DNA from: a candidate division KSB1 bacterium
Lineage (GTDB): Bacteria; Zhuqueibacterota; Zhuqueibacteria; Residuimicrobiales; Krinioviventaceae
Length of the DNA stretch: 64,000 nt
Reading direction: 5' to 3'
Assembly: GCA_034521575.1 (NCBI GenBank)
Contig: JAXHMJ010000005.1
Span: 2,542,001 to 2,606,000, forward strand
This document shows, one piece after another, positions 2,697 to 63,684 of the stretch (positions within the stretch are counted from its first letter, which is position 1; every line of letters starts with the position of its first letter). The notes beneath the pieces were generated by a model, which saw nothing but the letters and a program-made list of their open reading frames with translations, had not been told where the DNA came from and made no database searches. The position numbers and the translations under genes are program-made.

Positions 2697-3541
2697 TGCC
2701 GTTATCACTGGAATTAAAAAATGTTTCGTTCCGATATGAAGACTGGAGCGAAACGGATGTCTGGGTGTTGAACAAAATCAATCTTTTGTTCGGCGCCAAC
2801 GAGTGTACCGCCCTGGTCGGTCCCAGCGGCGCCGGCAAAACCACATTGGTCCAGCATTTCACCGGATTGCTCAAGCCTTCCGGCGGGCAGGTATTGTTTG
2901 AAAACAAGGATATCTGGAATAAATCGTTTTCGCGTTCCCGATTGTTCAAAGAGATCGGTCTGGTTTTTCAGTTCCCGGAAAGCCAGCTGTTCGAGGAAAC
3001 GGTTCGTGATGATGTCGCCTATGGTCCGAAAAATTTACAGCTGGACGATGAAACGATAAATCATCGGGTATACGAATCTCTTGAAATGCTCGGTATTGAT
3101 CCAAAGACGTTTGCCGAACGTTCACCGTTTCAGCTCAGTGAAGGTGAAAAACGTCGGGTGGCCATTGCCGGCATTCTGGCGATGCAGCCGCAAATGATCG
3201 TGTTCGATGAACCCACTGCCGGACTGGATCCTGCAGGCGTGCGTCAGTTCGTCTCATTGATTCAAACCCTCATTGCCTCGGGAAAATCCATTGTGATTAT
3301 CAGTCACAATATGGATTTTGTGGCTCAGGTAGCGGATCGGGTGATTGTTTTGAAATCCGGCAGTGTTCTGTTTGACGGAACCTGTCCCGATTTATTTGAT
3401 GACGATCATCTGCTGAAAACAGCTGATCTGGAGCGTCCCGGCATTCAAACGGCTGTTCTTGAATTGGGGATTCAATTACCGGTTAAACTCTCTTCTGTTT
3501 TGACGCTTCAGGATCTCGAACAGCTTTTATCCCGACTTTGA
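2696..3541 (+). CDS. ECF-type ABC transporter ATP-binding protein (EcfA/CbiO-like)
   Basis: Cytoplasmic ATPase of the energy-coupling-factor class, which powers vitamin or metal uptake. Motifs in order: Walker A GPSGAGKTT (about residue 43), the Q-loop FQFPESQLFEETV characteristic of EcfA/CbiO, signature LSEGEKRRVAIAG, Walker B MIVFDEPTAGLD and switch His in IISHNMD. Length (281 aa) is normal. The ATG at 2696 overlaps the dGTPase stop and has a GGGGGCGG purine run before it. No EcfT, S-component or second ATPase follows; instead there is a uracil-permease remnant. The partners must therefore lie elsewhere, or this is a leftover of a rearranged operon. Substrate unknown. Confidence 0.85.
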   Translation: MPLSLELKNVSFRYEDWSETDVWVLNKINLLFGANECTALVGPSGAGKTTLVQHFTGLLKPSGGQVLFENKDIWNKSFSRSRLFKEIGLVFQFPESQLFEETVRDDVAYGPKNLQLDDETINHRVYESLEMLGIDPKTFAERSPFQLSEGEKRRVAIAGILAMQPQMIVFDEPTAGLDPAGVRQFVSLIQTLIASGKSIVIISHNMDFVAQVADRVIVLKSGSVLFDGTCPDLFDDDHLLKTADLERPGIQTAVLELGIQLPVKLSSVLTLQDLEQLLSRL

Positions 3542-3619
3542 TCCTTTTGCGGTCTGTTTTGCAGCATCCTGTGTGTTCTTTACTTGATTGTTATGTAAAA
3601 TATAAATAGTTTAGTCCCT

Positions 3620-3941
3620 GTTTGTAGCGGGATTGTTGTGGGATATGTTGTTTCTATGTTTTTCGGCAAACTCGGCGCCCTGCTTGAAACCTTTCCGGTT
3701 CCGCTGACGGGCGGTATTATGGTGCTGTTATTTGGCGTGATCGCCGGCGCGGGAATTAATTTTCTGGTTAAGAAAAGCTGATTTGACGAATGACAGAAAT
3801 CTGGTGATCGTGGCCGTTATTCTGGTGTTCGGTCTGGGTGATATGGCGCTCGGCCTTGGAGAGTTTCAGCTGGCCGGTATCGGACTGGCCGATGTTGTCG
3901 GTGTATTGTTGAATAGGATTATCCCTGTAAACAAAAAATGA
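3620..3941 (+). pseudogene. Remnant of a uracil permease (NCS2 family), C-terminal part only
   Basis: Two adjacent frames encode the tail of a UraA-type nucleobase permease. The first (about 3620-3781) gives FFGKLGALLETFPVP, LTGGIMVLLFG and VIAGAGINFLV. The second (about 3779-3941) gives DLTNDRNLVIVAVILVFGLG and ends VVGVLLNRIIP. The order matches the last two to three helices of the family. About three quarters of the protein is missing upstream, where the ABC gene ends directly, so this is a true truncation as well as a frameshift. A complete purine-type NCS2 permease lies at 4634-5930. Confidence 0.7.
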
Positions 3942-3952
3942 AAGGATATCGA

Positions 3953-4621
3953 GTGAAAAAAAGCGTTTTTCTTGCGTTGTCTTTGATGGTCGTATCCGGG
4001 TATTCCCAGATGCTGCAGGTGCATTATGACATGGGCGAGGATCGCGAGTACGTGACCACTACCCTGGAAATGTTCAAGCCCGATGCATTGGGTGCTACCT
4101 TTTGGTTTGTAGATATGGATTATAATTCCGCGGATCAAAACAAATCCAATTCTCTCGCGTATTGGGAAATTGCCCGCTATTTCACAACACCGTTTTTGAA
4201 TGAAAAGCTGTCAGCAACCATCCAGTACAATGACGGCACTGCCACCTGGGGTCCGCTGCACCAGGTGTGGCTCGGTGGTATCAGTTATCCGCTTGATCTG
4301 GGATGTATTACGTTACATACGGATCTGCTGTATCGTCATATGGACGTATCGGATTCTCCGGACTGGCAGCTGACATTTGTGTGGTTTAAACCGCTCTTGC
4401 AGAGCAAGGTTCATTTCACTGGATTTTTTGATCTCTGGACACAAGATATTCCTCAAGAAAATATGGACGAGAAATTTATTGTTATGGCCGAGCCGCAACT
4501 CTGGTATGTGCTGAACAAAACATTTTCGGTCGGTACCGAAGTTGAAATCAGCTATAACTATTTACCTCAGTATGATGAATGGAAAGTCATGCCCACTGTC
4601 GCTGTTAAATGGAACTTTTAA
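3953..4621 (+). CDS. DUF5020-like outer-membrane protein, Tsx-type nucleoside channel relative
   Basis: Predicted secreted beta-barrel of about 222 residues. I prefer the GTG start at 3953 (KKSVFLALSLMVVSGYSQ as signal peptide) because AAAGGA at 3941-3946 is well placed; an ATG 15 bases upstream has no ribosome-binding site. The mature part alternates aromatic and polar residues and ends with WNF, a typical barrel C-terminus. It resembles DUF5020 proteins, related to nucleoside-specific Tsx channels. It lies between a uracil-permease remnant and a purine permease (13 bases to azgA), consistent with passing nucleosides or bases across the outer membrane. Family assignment is from memory of the pattern. 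Confidence 0.65.
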   Translation: MKKSVFLALSLMVVSGYSQMLQVHYDMGEDREYVTTTLEMFKPDALGATFWFVDMDYNSADQNKSNSLAYWEIARYFTTPFLNEKLSATIQYNDGTATWGPLHQVWLGGISYPLDLGCITLHTDLLYRHMDVSDSPDWQLTFVWFKPLLQSKVHFTGFFDLWTQDIPQENMDEKFIVMAEPQLWYVLNKTFSVGTEVEISYNYLPQYDEWKVMPTVAVKWNF

Positions 4622-56038: not shown

Positions 56039-58954
56039 ATGTCTGACGCCAAATCTAAAATTGCCGAGCTGGTTGAGAAATTTGACCGCAATCTAAGCGA
56101 GTACAAACACCCGAAATACAACGAAACCCAGATCCGGGTGGAATTTATCAATCCGTTCTGGGAGGCGCTGGGCTGGGACGTGAACAATCGCAGCGGCTAT
56201 GCCCTGTCGTTCAGGGATGTCATTCACGAGGACGACATCAAGGTGGGCGGCCACACCAAGGCGCCGGATTACTCATTCCGCATCGGCGGACGGCGTATCT
56301 TTTTCCTGGAAGCGAAAAAACCGTCCGTGGACCTGAAACACAATCCCGAACCGGCGTTTCAGCTGCGCCGCTACGCCTATTCCGCCAAACTGCCGGCGTC
56401 CATGCTGTCGGATTTTGAGGAACTGAGCATTTACGATACGCGCCTCAAACCCGCGATCACCGACAAGGCGCACACCGGCCGCATGCTGTATTATACGTTT
56501 CGCGACTATGCCGACAAATGGGACGAGATTGAAGCGGCCTTGTCCCGGGAAGCGGTGCTGCGCGGCGATTTCAACCGTTTTATCGAGGACAACCAGGCCA
56601 AACGTCCCGGCGCGGAACTGGACCGCGATTTTCTCAACAGCCTGGACGAGTGGCGCATGCTGCTGGCGCGCAATATCGCCCTGCGCAATCCGGATCTGTC
56701 GGAACGCGAGCTGAATTTCGGCGTGCAGATGACCCTGGACCGGCTCATCTTTTTGCGCATGGCCGAGGACCGCGGCATCGAGCCCTATGGCGCGCTGCAG
56801 TCGCTATTGAACGGCGAGAACAGCTATAAACGCCTGGTGGAGATTTATCATCACGCCGACGAGCGCTATAATTCCGGGTTGTTTCATTTTGACGACCGGG
56901 ACGGTGAACACCCGGATACCATCACGCCCGGTCTGCAGCTGGACGACAAGGTGCTCAAAGAGATTCTCAAAAACCTGTACTATCCCTGTCCCTACGAGTT
57001 CAGTCAGTTCCCGGTCGAGGTGATGGGGCACGCCTATGAGCAGTTTTTGGGCAAGCGCATCACCCTGACCGGCGGCCACCGCGCCCGCATCGAGGAAAAA
57101 CCCGAGGTGCGCAAGGCCGGCGGCGTCTATTACACACCGCAGTATATTGTCGATTATATCGTCGAGCACACCGTGGGCGAACTGCTCAAGGACAAAACCC
57201 CGCAGCAGGTCAGTGACCTGCGCATTGTCGATCCGGCCTGCGGCTCCGGATCGTTTCTGCTCGGCGCGTTTCAGTATCTCATGGACTGGCACCTGCAGGC
57301 CTATCAAGCCGAATACAAACGCACCGGAACGCTGCCGGGCCGTCCGGTGAACGGCAAACGGCCGCGCAAATCCGATCCCCAGGCCATCTTTCAGGGCGCG
57401 GAGGACGAGTGGTACCTGACCACAGCGGAGAAAAAACGCATTCTGCTGAACACGATTTACGGCGTGGACATTGACGCCAATGCCGTCGAAGTGACCAAAC
57501 TCAGTCTGCTGCTCAAGGTGCTGGAGCACGAAGACAGCGAAACCCTGAACCGCCAGCTCGGACTCTGGCACGAACGCGCCCTGCCGAACCTGGGCGACAA
57601 TATCAAATGCGGCAACTCGCTCATCGGCCCGGATTATTACGACAATCAACAGGGCAACATGTTTGATGAACAGGAACTGCTGCGCGTCAACGCGTTCGAC
57701 TGGGAAGCGGAATTTGCACACGTGTTTGAACAGGGCGGCTTTGATGCGGTGATTGGGAATCCGCCGTATGGGGCGATTTTTACTGAATCTGAAAAGGATT
57801 ATTTGTTAAACACTTTTCAGTCCTTTGAATATCAAATTAATAGTTTTGTATTTTTCCTTGAAACAGGTTTAAAATTGCTTTCAAAAAATCGTTTACTTTC
57901 ATACATAACACCTGCTGTTTTTCTCAATCAACACTATTTTGAAAAAATAAGAAAAGTTATTTTGGACGAATCTTGTATCAACAAAATATTAGTTTTGAAT
58001 TATAAAGTTTTTCAGGATGCAGATACGGGGGACACTGCTGTTTTCATTTTTGAAAAATCTGATGAGGAAAGTTTTGATGTCGAGTTTTCAAAAATGAGTA
58101 GCGCAAAAGCGTTTGAAAATATAAAATATGAAAAAGTTGCTCAGAGGACATTTTACCAAAATGAGAGATATGAATTTCAATTAAGATCAAATAATGATTT
58201 ATTCGAAAAGGCATACTTTAATTCTGTTTTGTTAGGTCATATCTCAAATTGTATCGTTGGTATAAAACCTTATCAGAAAAATAAGGGACAGCCAAAACAG
58301 ACAGCAAGTACTGTAAAAAACAGGATTTTCGATAGCGATGAAAAACGTGATGAGACATATAAACAATATATTGTTGGGAAAGATATTGATAGATATACAT
58401 TGAAGCCAATTGCGAAAAGATTTATTAGTTATGGAAAATGGCTTGCCGAACCTCGTTTTCCAGCGCCATTTGAACGAGAAAAGCTTGTTCTGAGGCAAAC
58501 TTCAGATAGAATTAGAGCCACATATGATTCAAATGGATTTTATAATCTGAATAATGTTTATAATATCGAAATGACTGATAAAAGATATAATCTCTTTTAT
58601 GTGCTTGGCATTATCAATTCGAAATTGATGGTATATCTATATCAGGAAATCGTCCCGGAAAAAGGGCGTGTTTTTGCAGAGATAAAAAAAGTAAATCTTA
58701 TCAAGATTCCCATCCGAAAAATAGATTTCGAAAATCCCAAAGACAAAGCCACCCACGACCGCCTCGTTGACCTCGTCCAGCACATGCTCGACCTGCACCG
58801 GCGCCTGTCCGCCGCCCGCGATCCGCGCACCCGCGAACAACTGCAGCGCCAAATCACCACCACGGACGGTCAGATTGATCGGTTGGTGTATGGGTTGTAC
58901 GGGTTGACGGAAGAGGAGGTGGGGATTGTGGAAAATAACGTCAAAAAAACATAA
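56039..58954 (+). CDS. Eco57I-like single-chain restriction-modification enzyme (type IIG/IIL)
   Basis: 971 residues combining nuclease, adenine methylase and target recognition. Residues 1-150 hold a PD-(D/E)xK nuclease (APDYSFRI ... FLEAKKPS). The methylase has motif I DPACGSGSFLLGA near 398 and motif IV IGNPPYG near 575. The recognition domain spans about 580-900, followed by a conserved helical C-terminus (HMLDLHRRLSAARDPRTREQ). The stretch coding for the recognition domain (about 57775-58735) is plainly AT-rich while both sides are GC-rich, as if it had been swapped. One polypeptide would methylate one strand and cut; specificity unknown. It is intact. Confidence 0.88.
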   Translation: MSDAKSKIAELVEKFDRNLSEYKHPKYNETQIRVEFINPFWEALGWDVNNRSGYALSFRDVIHEDDIKVGGHTKAPDYSFRIGGRRIFFLEAKKPSVDLKHNPEPAFQLRRYAYSAKLPASMLSDFEELSIYDTRLKPAITDKAHTGRMLYYTFRDYADKWDEIEAALSREAVLRGDFNRFIEDNQAKRPGAELDRDFLNSLDEWRMLLARNIALRNPDLSERELNFGVQMTLDRLIFLRMAEDRGIEPYGALQSLLNGENSYKRLVEIYHHADERYNSGLFHFDDRDGEHPDTITPGLQLDDKVLKEILKNLYYPCPYEFSQFPVEVMGHAYEQFLGKRITLTGGHRARIEEKPEVRKAGGVYYTPQYIVDYIVEHTVGELLKDKTPQQVSDLRIVDPACGSGSFLLGAFQYLMDWHLQAYQAEYKRTGTLPGRPVNGKRPRKSDPQAIFQGAEDEWYLTTAEKKRILLNTIYGVDIDANAVEVTKLSLLLKVLEHEDSETLNRQLGLWHERALPNLGDNIKCGNSLIGPDYYDNQQGNMFDEQELLRVNAFDWEAEFAHVFEQGGFDAVIGNPPYGAIFTESEKDYLLNTFQSFEYQINSFVFFLETGLKLLSKNRLLSYITPAVFLNQHYFEKIRKVILDESCINKILVLNYKVFQDADTGDTAVFIFEKSDEESFDVEFSKMSSAKAFENIKYEKVAQRTFYQNERYEFQLRSNNDLFEKAYFNSVLLGHISNCIVGIKPYQKNKGQPKQTASTVKNRIFDSDEKRDETYKQYIVGKDIDRYTLKPIAKRFISYGKWLAEPRFPAPFEREKLVLRQTSDRIRATYDSNGFYNLNNVYNIEMTDKRYNLFYVLGIINSKLMVYLYQEIVPEKGRVFAEIKKVNLIKIPIRKIDFENPKDKATHDRLVDLVQHMLDLHRRLSAARDPRTREQLQRQITTTDGQIDRLVYGLYGLTEEEVGIVENNVKKT

Positions 58955-59747
58955 ACCACAGATGTCAGATCGTCCGGGATATCGATCCCGGACGGGCGCT
59001 GATTGGAGACATCCGTCTCCAGCCTCCTTGCCTGGAGTGCCGCGTTTAGCCATTACGGTCTATCTTTGATTTTCGGGCAGTCGTGCAGTGACGCCGGCTC
59101 AGATGCTGCGGCTCATCTGTGCGGCATGCGGGACAGATGTCCCGGTTCATTGTACACCCCGGATGGATATCCGGGGCGATCTGTTTTGGTGAAAAGTCAC
59201 CGCGAAACCGAAAATATTTACCCTTCTGGGCATAAGTAACAAAGTGAGTTCGACCTGCACCGGCGCCAAAGCGCCGCCCGCGATCCGCGCACCCGCGAAC
59301 AACTGCAGCGCCAAATTACCACCACGGACGCTCAGATTGACCGGCTGGTGTATGGGTTGTACGGGTTGACGGAAGAGGAGGTGGGGATTGTGGAAAATAA
59401 CGTCAAAAAAACATAAACCACAGATGTCAGATCGTCTGGGATAACGATCCCGGGCGGGCGCTGATTGGAGACATCCGTCTCCAGCCCCCTTGCCTGGAGT
59501 GCCGCGTTTAGCCATTACGGTCTATCTTTGATTTTCGGGCAGTCGTGCAGTGACACCGACTCAGATGCTTCGGCTCATCTGTGCTGCATGCGGGACAGAT
59601 GTCCCGGTTCATTGTACACCCCGGATGGATATCCGGGGCGATCTGTTTTGGTGAAAAGTCACCGCGAAACCGAAAATATTTACCCTTCTGGGCATAAGTA
59701 ACAAAGTGAGTTCGACCTGCACCGGCGTCTGTCCGGCCGCCCGCTGA
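58788..59747 (+). repeat. 462-bp tandem duplication of the restriction-modification gene 3' end
   Basis: The phrase TCGACCTGCACCGGCG starts at 58788, 59250 and 59712, an exact period of 462. Unit 1 holds the last 55 codons of the enzyme, its stop and about 290 bases of downstream DNA. Unit 2 repeats all of it with a few changes (including a different junction, GCCAAAGCGCC). Unit 3 stops after about 36 bases. The second copy of the C-terminus has no start and is presumably silent. Confidence 0.92.
59712..59731 (+). repeat. 20-bp direct repeat, left of the DarTG module
   Basis: TCGACCTGCACCGGCGTCTG, identical to 63034-63053. It is the start of unit 3 of the tandem duplication. Both copies carry GTCTG where the gene itself has GCCTG. 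Confidence 0.8.
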
Positions 59748-59791: not shown

Positions 59792-60263
59792 TTTTGATTT
59801 TTTTATTGATTTTTAAGCTCTGAATACCGATTTTACCTTAAAAAGGATAACTGCTGCAACGCCCAATTGACATTTACCATATTACTCACATTGATAATCT
59901 GGAAAGTATTATCAAAGAAAACGGATTATGGTCGGATTCTGAACGGATCAGGCGCAATTTATCCTACAACAAAATAGGCTACCAGCACATCAAAGACAGA
60001 AGAATGCGCAGAAAAGTTAATGTTGGTCGTGGCGGTTGTCTTGGCGATTATGTTCCGTTTTATTTTGCGCCACGGTCTCCGATGCTGTACACGATTAATA
60101 AAGGAAATGTCCCGGACTATCAGGACGGACAGGAACCCATTATACACCTGGTTTCTAACATAGATCTGGTCATTTTCCAAAACAGTCAATTTGTTTACAC
60201 CGACCGTCATGCAGAATTGTCGCACGCTGAATATTCCAATAACCTGGATGCAATCAGTAACGT

Positions 60264-61554
60264 CCGGTTAGGTTTTTGCACGTAAGTAATTTCGTCGATT
60301 TTTTCGATGAGATTTTCTACGATTTTTCTTGTCGGAATCTCGCACTTCATTTTGAATTTGAATACGGAGTTCTCGCACTCTTTCGATGTTAACTTTTTCG
60401 TTATAATTTTCATGACAATAGATTGCCAGTAGCAAATATGTAATGAGGCCGCCGAGAATTTGAACCATAAGTCCGTACTGACTTCGAGCTATGAGATGAT
60501 AGACTTTGAGATGGCGTTTCCACCAAGCGAAGAAATTTTCAATTTCCCAACGAAGTTTGTATGCCTGAGCAACATCTTCTGCAGAGAGGTCATAACGATT
60601 TGTCGCGATCCAGTATTTTACATTGCCGATTTTATAACCGACAAGTCGTATCGACTTTTTTGTTTGATTGGTGCCCGGCGTCCCCAATAAAACTATAGCA
60701 TCATAAAAAACAATGCTTTCTGGTTTTATGTCATGTGCATAAAGACATTTTTTTTCGTCGATGCTTTGATGCGGCAGAAAAATTGACGACCGTCCTCCTG
60801 CCATTGGTCAAAGCGTTTATGGCATTGATAGCCCCGATCAAGAACGCCGGACTGGTCAGAAGAGAGTATTTGATCGACAAATGGTCGTTCACCGGCTAAA
60901 CCGCCTGTGAGATATAGTTTTGTTGGAATGGACCGATTAATATCAAAACCGAGATGAACTTTTGCCTTTTTAGAGCCGTTTCTATAATCAGCCCAAGTCA
61001 TTGAAAGAACAGCATCAATCAAAGAACCGTCGATGGCAACAAGCTCCCCCAAATGTTCAAATTGCTTTGGGATAGTGGTCGCAGCTTTGGCTTGAAGTTC
61101 ATTAAAAACAACAGCTAGTTGTTCGAGGCCGCGATTGTTGATAGCCTCAAAAAAGCTACTTTTTTTGATTCCTTCTTTCGGGCAATATGCTCCCGAGCAA
61201 ATGTATCTTCTTGAAGAACCTGGACAAGATGAGTCCCTGATTCATGCTCTTCAAGATGATAAAACACGAGGGCATTGAGTTGATCTTCAAATGTCATTTG
61301 CAGAGGTCGATCTCCTCGTGAAACTAATGGTGGTACCTTGGACAAGATAGCCTTGATCGGTTCCATTAGTCTTTTGAATGTTTTAGATTTTTGTCGAGGC
61401 TTAAACTTTTTGAATTTACGTCGCATTTCCATAACACCTTATATTTATTAATGTTATGAAAATCGACTTCAAAATTTTTGACGTAATGTCAAGTGTTTTT
61501 TTGTGTTATGTCATATTTTTTTGTATAATCTGAGCGTTGCAATTACCTAACCGG
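60264..61554 (-). mobile_element. IS4-family insertion sequence (1291 bp) inside darT
   Basis: Inverted ends CCGGTTAGGTTTTTGCACG (left) and CCGGTTAGGTAATTGCAAC (right, read inward) match at about 15 of 19 positions. ACGT flanks both ends (60260-60263, 61555-61558), a probable 4-bp target duplication within the palindromic site TAACGTTA. The transposase stop codon lies inside the left terminal repeat. Confidence 0.85.
60268..61432 (-). CDS. IS4-family DDE transposase (two frameshifts)
   Basis: Three overlapping frames give one product: an N-terminal block (KIDEL-like MRRKFKKFKPRQKSKTFKRL, FEDQLNALVFYHLEEHESG), first catalytic Asp in LVAIDGSLIDAVLSM, second Asp in GVLDRGYQCHKRFD, and Glu in the family signature YKLRWEIENFFAWWKRHLK, which fits the Y-(2)-R-(3)-E-(6)-K pattern of IS4 elements. 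Shifts lie near 61100 and 60780. Joined length about 385 residues. Probably inactive if the shifts are real. Confidence 0.85.
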
Positions 61555-61815
61555 ACGTTACTGGGATGCAATAGAACATATGGTTGATTTTGCAGTCATG
61601 AAGGAAATATACTGGCATAATACCCCGGATGATCCGGATAGAAAAGAGCGGCGCCAGGCTGAATTTCTTGTTTTCAGATTTTTCCCCTGGAATATTGTAA
61701 CTCAAATCGCCGTTTTGAATGAAAATATCGCACAAAAAGTCGAATCCATTTTAGAAACAAGTGAATACAAACCGGCTGTCAAATTGAAACCTGAATGGTA
61801 CTATAGGTTTTAAAC

Positions 61816-62859
61816 ATGATCACATTCGCGCAAGGTGACATACTGAAAGCAGATGCTGAAGCCCTGGTCAACACGGTCAACACGGTGGGGGTAATGGGCA
61901 AAGGCATTGCTCTGCAATTTAAAAAAGCATATCCGGAGAATTACAACGTTTATAAAAAAGCCTGTGATCACGGAGATTTGAAACCCGGTAAATTACTGGT
62001 ATATGATCGTCACAGTTTTACCCATCCCCGCTATATCATCAATTTTCCAACGAAAACCCACTGGAAATCAAAAAGCCGGTATGAATACATTGAATCGGGG
62101 TTGGAAACCTTGAAGCATGAAATCAAACGTTATCAAATCCATTCCATCGCCGTGCCGCCGCTCGGCAGCGGATTGGGCGGACTCGACTGGAACCGGGTCA
62201 GAACCTTGATCACACAATATCTTGAACCCTTGAAAGATGTTCAAATATTTGTTTATGAACCGCACGGAGCACCGCCACCTCAATCGATGATCAAACAATC
62301 AAAACCGCCGAAAATGACGCATGGCCGTGCTTCACTTCTTGAGTTGATGCGAATTTATGCAGTCCCCGGCTATGATTACCGTTTATCGCTGCTTGAAATT
62401 CAAAAATTGATGTATTTTTTACAGGAAGCCGGTGTTCCACTTAAACTGCAATATGAAAAGGGGCATTACGGGCCTTATGCAGATAATTTGCGACATGTTC
62501 TGCATCACATCGAAGGTCATTTCATCGTTGGTTTTGGGGATGGTCAGAACGCTCCTGATGTTCCAGTACAAATTAGAGACGAGTCTGTGCTGCAAACAGC
62601 AGATGCATTCTTACAGCCATACAATGAAACGCGCGAAAAAATTGATCGAGTCAAAGATCTGATTGAAGGGTTTGAGACGCCTTACGGCATGGAACTGCTC
62701 GCCAGTGTGCACTGGGTATGCACACGTGAGGTACAAAGTGATGATGTTGATCAGGTTATTGATAAGGTGCATCAATGGAATCCACGTAAACGAGATCTGT
62801 TAAAGGCCAAACATATTCATGCGGCATGGCAGCGGTTACGGGGTGAATCCTGGATTTAA
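61816..62859 (+). CDS. darG: DarG-like antitoxin: macro-domain DNA ADP-ribosylglycohydrolase
   Basis: 347 residues, intact. The macro domain (1-155) has ALVNTVNTVGVMGKGIALQF, NFPTKTHWKSKSRYEYIE and IAVPPLGSGLGGLDWNRV, the loops that bind ADP-ribose and are typical of DarG. It would remove ADP-ribose from DNA thymidines. The C-terminal part (175-347: LLELMRIYAVPGYDYRLSLL, EIQKLMYFLQEAGVPLKLQY, KGHYGPYADNLRHVL) is the domain that binds and masks DarT in this family. It starts 2 bases after darT, now without a working partner. Confidence 0.92.
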   Translation: MITFAQGDILKADAEALVNTVNTVGVMGKGIALQFKKAYPENYNVYKKACDHGDLKPGKLLVYDRHSFTHPRYIINFPTKTHWKSKSRYEYIESGLETLKHEIKRYQIHSIAVPPLGSGLGGLDWNRVRTLITQYLEPLKDVQIFVYEPHGAPPPQSMIKQSKPPKMTHGRASLLELMRIYAVPGYDYRLSLLEIQKLMYFLQEAGVPLKLQYEKGHYGPYADNLRHVLHHIEGHFIVGFGDGQNAPDVPVQIRDESVLQTADAFLQPYNETREKIDRVKDLIEGFETPYGMELLASVHWVCTREVQSDDVDQVIDKVHQWNPRKRDLLKAKHIHAAWQRLRGESWI

Positions 62860-63033
62860 ATACTTGTAATCGGGGCAAGTTTTACATAACCTTTTTATAG
62901 AGTAAAATTACGTAACGGATATGTAACAATAAAACTGCAGAACCGGCAGCATATACCATATATAGGCGAATGATTGATTTTTATTCAATATTTTCCAGGT
63001 AAAATGATTGAAATATGTAACAGCATATTGATT

Positions 63034-63080
63034 TCGACCTGCACCGGCGTCTGGCCTGGTGTATGGGTTGTACGGGTTGA
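63034..63080 (+). repeat. 20-bp direct repeat and restriction-gene scrap, right of the DarTG module
   Basis: 63034-63053 equals 59712-59731. It is followed by CTGGTGTATGGGTTGTACGG, another piece of the enzyme's C-terminal coding sequence, with about 100 bases between the two pieces deleted. The first RAYT hairpin starts directly after. Confidence 0.8.
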
Positions 63081-63084
63081 CAGA

Positions 63085-63148
63085 GTAGGTGGGTTCGTAA
63101 TCCAGGATTTTCCATGTTTAAAGAAAATTCGTTACGAACCCACCCTAC
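63085..63148. repeat. RAYT hairpin, upstream
   Basis: Arms GTAGGTGGGTTCGTAA (63085-63100) and TTACGAACCCACCCTAC (63132-63148), one-base bulge, loop about 31 bases. It lies 33 bases before the RAYT start codon. Confidence 0.9.
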
Positions 63149-63180
63149 GGAAATCGACGGATAAACACAAGGGGGTAACC

Positions 63181-63684
63181 ATGTCCAATTATCGAAGGTA
63201 TTACGTGCCGGGCGGCACTTTTTTTATTACATTGGTCACGCACAAACGCAAACCGATTTTGACATCAGATCTCGCCCGGACCTGTCTGAGGCGGGCCTGG
63301 CGAATTGAACAATCCCGACGTCCGTTTAAAATCGTGGCTTTTTGTCTGTTGCCGGATCATCTGCATGTCATGATGACACTTCCGGCGCATGATGCGGATT
63401 TTTCAACCCGTGTTCGAAATATAAAACTGCGCTTTACCCGGTCTTTTCTCAAGAACGGCGGTGATGAGAGTGCCGTAACAGCATCGAAAATTCGTCACAG
63501 GGAACGCGGGGTGTGGCAGCGCCGGTTTTGGGAACACTGCATCCGTGATGACCGGGATTTTGAAAATCATTTGCATTATATTCATTACAATCCCGTCAAA
63601 CACAGTCTTGTCAAAAGCGCTGTTTTGTGGCCGTATTCAACCTTTCACCGGTATGTAAAAATGGGTTGGTATGAAAAAGATTGA
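63181..63684 (+). CDS. REP-associated tyrosine transposase (RAYT, TnpA-REP)
   Basis: 167 residues from ATG 63181 after AAGGGGG. Y1 HUH-type transposase: YVPGGTFFITLVTHKRKPIL, the metal-binding HUH motif within LLPDHLHVMMTLP, GVWQRRFWEHCIRDDRDFENHLHYIHYNPVKHSLV with the catalytic Tyr in the last block, and WPYSTFHRYV. It lies between two hairpins with matching arms, the usual arrangement in which the RAYT moves or tends dispersed palindromes. Intact. Confidence 0.92.
   Translation: MSNYRRYYVPGGTFFITLVTHKRKPILTSDLARTCLRRAWRIEQSRRPFKIVAFCLLPDHLHVMMTLPAHDADFSTRVRNIKLRFTRSFLKNGGDESAVTASKIRHRERGVWQRRFWEHCIRDDRDFENHLHYIHYNPVKHSLVKSAVLWPYSTFHRYVKMGWYEKD

Follow-up and report, generated by a model that had tools for sequence, protein, structure and literature searches.

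A DarTG2-type toxin-antitoxin locus in a candidate division KSB1 bacterium, with the toxin gene split by an IS4-family element and the antitoxin probably a young leftover

In the genome of a candidate division KSB1 bacterium, an IS4-family element divides the toxin gene of a DarTG locus, darT, and the antitoxin gene, darG, is complete. We are confident, short of certain, that this is a DarTG2-type locus whose toxin was recently inactivated by the insertion and whose antitoxin is a young leftover. The host assembly comprises 5.26 Mb in 5 contigs. The window, the whole 64,000-nucleotide stretch of DNA that was analyzed, corresponds to C5:2542001-2606000, and its features are as follows (window positions):

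56039 to 58954, plus strand: type IIG-like, Eco57I-type restriction-methylase gene, upstream neighbor, outside the toxin-antitoxin pair
59851 to 60254, plus strand: darT N-terminal part (Pfam DarT 1-124 of 201, E 6.8e-41)
60246 to 60254, no strand: target duplication, left copy, 9 bp, GGATGCAAT (direct-repeat comparison of copies)
60255 to 61563, minus strand: IS4-family element, 1309 bp, with 26-nt terminal inverted repeats that are 92 percent complementary
61432 to 61115, 61052 to 60726 and 60804 to 60268, minus strand: transposase of the window copy, as three open reading frames
61564 to 61572, no strand: target duplication, right copy, 9 bp, GGATGCAAT (direct-repeat comparison of copies)
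61573 to 61813, plus strand: darT C-terminal part (Pfam DarT 125-201 of 201, E 1.4e-20)
61816 to 62859, plus strand: darG, complete frame of 347 aa, macrodomain (K80) and C-terminal domain

Results

The original prediction recognized a DarTG locus with darT motifs on either side of an insertion. Both genes match family models (Pfam, PADLOC, NCBIfam), and the split motifs are borne out by Pfam DarT and by NCBIfam toxin_DarT, which matches the left part over positions 1-128 and the right part over 130-204 of 204. The left border first given for the locus, 59842, needs correction, as it precedes an in-frame stop at 59848-59850. The two parts of darT are separated by the 1309 bp of the element plus the 9-bp duplication. 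Positions 60254 and 61572 are the same base of the duplication and each is a second codon position in its darT frame, so the two parts are in one codon phase.

The translated left part of darT matches the N-terminal region of 7omv, a Thermus chain; an Arg-Arg pair near positions 51-52 falls within this alignment, and NAD binding presumably belongs to the same region. The right part contains the catalytic-glutamate motif QAEFLV. From the alignment, we take its Glu codon (61661-61663) to be the equivalent of E160 in Thermus aquaticus (Taq) DarT. In 7omv the residues aligned with this motif are QAAFLV; we read this as the E160A mutant of Taq DarT that PMC5179494 describes as non-toxic. The earlier proposal that the insertion parts the N-terminal half from the catalytic half thus holds, and the N-terminal part and the catalytic Glu are not found in one DarT protein, as a DarTG2 toxin would have them. 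Because the two halves are parted in this way, we conclude with high confidence that DarT activity would be lost through the split.

Ahead of its conserved IYHITH motif, darT has no ATG, GTG or TTG as far back as the in-frame stop at 59848-59850; CTG codons at 59851 and 59854 directly follow the stop. Among 63 intact darT frames of relatives (62 adjacent to darG, plus L078), one lacks a standard start, namely L037 (L037:4333-4400), and the window and L037 genes both have a CTG six codons ahead of the motif's ATT-TAC. L037 lies in a KSB1 genome of the host's own order (G010) and encodes the closest full-length DarG among the genomes searched, at 64 percent identity; the comparison set held 98 other genomes, none from the host's genus. 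The missing start is therefore unsupported as a second darT lesion, and a habit of the lineage explains it better: the otherwise intact L037 gene, the closest relative, shares it, with CTG at the matching place. Translation of both genes may perhaps start at CTG, keeping toxin levels low.

The darG gene is a full-length frame (61816-62859, 347 aa), as predicted. Its product matches the PADLOC DarG model over 1-326 of 329 (E 3.3e-136) and NCBIfam antitoxin_DarG (NF048014) with 466 bits, the cut-off being 250. A gapless phmmer alignment with Taq DarG (5m31) puts K80 on K80. Residues N22, K29 and K80 are important in Taq DarG, with K80 catalytic, according to the available text of PMC5179494. The window DarG keeps these three among 56 of 56 near-invariant family positions, a near-invariant column being one in which a single residue occurs in at least 95 percent of 61 DarGs with an adjoining intact DarT; L116, the 62nd paired locus, was left out of the column set because a contig end cuts its darG.

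Structural modelling against known DarG, proposed earlier as a check, points the same way. The AlphaFold2 model of the window DarG has a mean pLDDT of 91.3 and a pTM of 0.64. In Foldseek, the modelled macrodomain aligns with 5m31 at a TMt of 0.96 and with 55 percent identity to Taq DarG, and the model aligns at a TMt of 0.83 with chain B of 7yk3, the DarG part of an M. tuberculosis complex, which by sequence covers DarG residues 167-340. Judged by sequence and model together, the protein is predicted to have the macrodomain and C-terminal DarT-binding domain of a DarTG2 antitoxin, with K80 and the other active-site residues in place. If expressed, it should strip thymidine-linked ADP-ribose and bind DarT, as its characterized relatives do. 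It is the one DarG copy found in the host genome. A dN/dS comparison of the window darG with L037 is uninformative, since synonymous sites are saturated (pS 0.755). An outward promoter of the element driving darG was rejected as a candidate, TATAAT at 61524-61529 not being among the promoter-like sites scored. There are 5 promoter-like sites versus 7.2 expected, and 4 terminator-like sites versus 3.0 expected, numbers that do not amount to evidence of a promoter or a terminator.

The element had been described as 1291 bp long (60264-61554), with ACGT as its target duplication. Searching the whole genome with the element turned up 10 full copies, along with two fragments of a diverged copy. All 10 full copies share the ends CAGTAACGTCCGG and CCGGACGTTACTG, and in all of them ACGT stands in the context CAGTAACGT...ACGTTACTG. 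These common ends make the element 1309 bp long, at 60255-61563, with ACGT part of the terminal inverted repeat; identical bases border all 10 full copies, and ACGT is rejected as the target duplication, which is 9 bp long. A repeat search also gave the 26-nt arm pair spanning 60255 to 61563. Perfect 9-bp direct repeats lie outside the shared ends in 9 of the 10 copies, the exception being L008, whose flanks are unlike.

The transposase belongs to the IS4 family, as sister copy L009 matches NF033592 with E 2.5e-58, and DDE_Tnp_1 matches two of the three transposase pieces in the window, one of them slightly below cut-off. An uninterrupted transposase frame from the usual start is absent from all 10 copies; the longest frame, 382 aa in L009, is severed from that start by an indel. 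The element thus shows the DDE transposase, inverted repeats and constant-length duplication of the IS4 family, and an intact transposase frame is missing. Since sister copies adjoin other frames as well, darT seems to be no special target. One such copy (L006:1026-3418) sits between two same-strand ORF pieces, one with an HNH endonuclease domain.

The window copy differs by 0 substitutions from L002-L005, 1 from L006, 7 from L007 and from L008, 13 from L009 and 14 from L010, with 1-11 gap columns across these comparisons. Between the window copy and L002-L006 there are 0-1 substitutions yet 1-3 indels, so that indels outnumber substitutions; in the comparisons with L007-L010, substitutions outnumber indels. 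Of the 18 gap columns among the 10 copies, L010 alone accounts for 9, all insertions; another 4 each occur in a single other copy, and 5 are common to more than one copy. Few substitutions but several indels make sequencing error likely in the transposase frames, and the copies likely reflect recent spread plus residual sequencing error. A transposase acting in trans and homogenized copies are alternatives. The indels between copies also mean that small frame calls in the host genome are not fully safe.

The absence of substitutions relative to L002-L005 makes the insertion in darT look young, a likeness that assembly polishing or gene conversion could inflate. If the insertion is young, an intact darG is expected with or without selection. 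The original prediction offered two options for the lone DarG, protection against DarT from elsewhere or a recent leftover. The latter is the best fit, because an IS copy with 0 substitutions would leave too little time for selection on darG, or for its decay.

The junction was read from the assembly, and an assembly chimera, or a minority variant in a population that carries an intact darT, could produce it. Misassembly is conceivable given ten near-identical copies of the element, and the flanks of L008 are unlike. The perfect 9-bp duplication exactly at both borders and the single codon phase of darT across the insertion speak against this, as does a profile search of the contigs, which found the two darT pieces and no other DarT. 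We consider such an artifact or variant very improbable.

The upstream neighbor of the pair is repeated in part: the 3′-terminal stretch of the restriction-methylase gene, together with the DNA downstream of it, occurs in tandem (58788-59087 and 59250-59549; 462-bp step, 96 percent). Fragments are also present at 59702 and at 63024-63092, and remnants of this tail thus lie on both sides of the darTG segment. A REP-associated tyrosine transposase lies at 62974-63684 (NF047646, 182 bits) with GTAGGTGGGTTCGT-type repeats on either side; the exact 14-mer occurs at only 2 places in the genome, both around that gene.

A different reading of the lone DarG is that it is selected as an anti-addiction immunity gene against DarT from phages, plasmids or other elements. 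It would act by reversing DNA ADP-ribosylation and by blocking incoming DarT through its C-terminal domain. Relatives bear on this reading. Our survey took the best 80 of 104 confirmed darG loci from GTDB genomes. The scan depends on exact matches to short peptide patterns, which biases the set toward relatives of the window DarG. At 62 of these 80 loci an intact darT frame ends within 120 bases of darG, and at 13 a full DarG lies beside an abnormal darT. Among the 13, darT is structurally lost in 7, being absent in L042 and L108 and present as pieces in L050, L064, L071, L088 and L100. Five (L044, L047, L054, L084 and L097) have a frameshift or stop in darT, which may be sequencing error in these draft genomes, and L078 has a near full-length darT that is separated from darG by a DDE transposase gene. 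Four of the 80 loci (L066, L068, L099 and L103) are unclassified, with a contig end too near.

This recurrence among the best 80 loci favors an immunity role, as does the Pfam DarT search of the 13 genomes, which gave no match for L042, L064 and L108, 3 of the 7 with structural loss. The L086 locus (L086:1500-3260) speaks against it: darT and the first ~70 DarG residues are gone, the rest is open and 2.3 kb upstream are present, possibly a late stage of decay.

Several loci are of interest in themselves. At L050:4569-6038, the DarT N-terminal part (Pfam 1-124) is in one frame with a complete DarG, and the catalytic half is gone. A shared origin of the truncations in L088 and L100 may be considered, as their truncation points are close, but their upstream DNA differs; elsewhere in the L088 genome DarT is encoded at a second locus, in two frames. 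L106, L107, L109 and L111 have a second DarT-like frame of 455-462 aa (~2990-4380) immediately upstream of their darTG pairs; the records of these four loci bear the names Bacteroidales, Fibrobacter, Limimorpha and Duncaniella.

The evidence on selection of lone DarGs is mixed. At the 56 near-invariant columns the 13 abnormal-locus DarGs have 0-2 deviations, and paired DarGs have 0-3, which is in line with maintained function under the immunity reading. Relative rates (abnormal versus paired relative) do not differ significantly for L042 (14 v 13), L064 (23 v 22), L071 (6 v 11), L050 (32 v 40), L044 (30 v 25), L047 (30 v 41), L054 (3 v 6), L097 (29 v 22) or L108 (1 v 0), nor for the window DarG (23 v 32 and 33 v 29); L078 and L084 were outside this set. 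Counts of unique changes show L100 evolving faster than a paired relative (44 v 11, p 9e-6); L088 is faster than L091 (29 v 11, p 0.006) but not than L079 (22 v 16). These are raw p values over 14 tests, of which L100 alone would survive correction. Both rates suggest relaxed constraint and count against an immunity role. The comparison of darG in L108 and L109 (dS 0.036, dN 0.001) favors it, but the L108 branch has just 3 resolved synonymous changes and 1 non-synonymous one, too few to decide. The DNA common to L108 and L109 starts 17 bases before the darG start, at 99 percent identity, with no blastn match further upstream.

A further point in favor of immunity comes from a genome of the host's family, G002 (L019:1501-1950), which encodes a DarG macrodomain of 150 aa that ends at a stop codon of its own and is 59 percent identical to that of the window. 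The gene overlaps the last bases of the HsdS gene, the HsdR gene follows, and a DarT match was not found in the G002 genome. EPEC DarTG2 is placed between hsdS and hsdR in the available text of PMC12255303, and the G002 gene therefore looks like a toxin-free form of the hsdS-DarTG2-hsdR arrangement. A full DarT frame adjoins DarG in 9 of 9 viral contigs and in Thermus phage phiMa. DarT therefore travels, which an immunity role would call for. Among 50,697 phage records, 869 have a DarG relative, with a match covering at least 80 percent of DarG in 2 only, and many phages may carry a lone DarG-like macrodomain.

A reciprocal search for intact DarT without DarG covered the window's phylum (82 genomes). 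DarT matches occur in 11 of them. Six (G010, G019, G030, G031, G062 and G081) have a near-full DarT with an adjoining or fused DarG or macrodomain. In G047 and G059, DarT lies within a very large protein and the fetched stretch has no DarG match. The remaining three are the window, a truncated DarT in G068 and a fragment in G046. An asymmetry between lone DarG and lone DarT was rejected as a claim, 11 cases being too few.

Discussion

Toxin loss before antitoxin loss is the order that a cell survives. The ancestral state here would have been a DarTG2-type toxin-antitoxin locus, darT followed by darG. An IS4-family element, now in ten near-identical copies, would then have jumped into darT, duplicating 9 bp and parting the N-terminal half from the half with the apparent catalytic glutamate. 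The toxin would thus have been lost first, leaving DarG whole with the active-site residues that we tested, and DarG is now most likely a young leftover.

The locus resembles DarTG2 of Thermus aquaticus and M. tuberculosis in having darT ahead of darG, with a gap of 2 bases from stop to start, in the catalytic Lys80 of DarG, and in the match of both genes to family models. It differs in that darT is split by an IS and has no standard start codon. The setting differs as well: DarTG2 appears beside type I RM genes in the available text of PMC5179494 and PMC12255303, whereas the neighbor in the window is a type IIG-like methylase gene.

The literature already contains a DarG-type hydrolase that stands alone and counteracts DarT: SCO6735, a DarG-like macrodomain, neutralizes DarT in E. 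coli and S. coelicolor (PMC9411070). According to the portions of that paper available, S. coelicolor has only SCO6735 and no DarTG, and SCO6735 removes thymidine-linked ADP-ribose without a DarT partner (PMC9411070). This is the closest published precedent that we found for a lone DarG-type immunity gene. SCO6735 differs from the window DarG in belonging to a separate macrodomain subgroup, with catalytic Gln85, conserved in Streptomyces, and the same portions do not describe it as the remnant of a broken darTG pair (PMC9411070).

Other systems offer partial parallels. Chromosomal hok-sok copies of E. coli K-12 are also toxin-antitoxin loci inactivated by insertion sequences, among other causes, according to the accessible part of PMC2654758, but hok-sok is a type I system and the window antitoxin is an intact 347-aa enzyme. 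ICP1 Gp145, an antitoxin mimic from a V. cholerae phage, likewise counteracts DarT without a toxin of its own, but it is borne by the attacker, binds DarT and is not termed DarG in the text available (PMC11481870). No survey of darG loci with lost darT was among the literature matches listed, and one may exist.

The published work that speaks for immunity comprises, as far as the sources at hand go, the anti-addiction model (PMC2654758), rescue from DarT by the DarG macrodomain alone (PMC5179494) and SCO6735 (PMC9411070). In the window, the insertion is too young for such selection to show, and a promoter for darG does not rise above chance. We therefore regard selection of the window DarG for immunity as quite unlikely, and keep to the young leftover.

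Taken alone, the window shows a routine toxin loss, the ordinary way for toxin-antitoxin pairs to fall apart. It matters a little because an enzymatic antitoxin seems to have been left here without its toxin only very recently, and because several cases of DarG next to a missing or broken DarT came out of the survey. It is tempting to speculate, though we hold it unlikely, that DarG, once rid of its toxin, stays on by itself in DNA repair or immunity, so that the host carries a kind of vaccine against DarT arriving from outside. If so, the window would capture this state just born, and the macrodomain between hsdS and hsdR in G002 would be its settled form. SCO6735 is a published parallel to the general idea, and what would be new is that broken darTG pairs give rise to such genes repeatedly.
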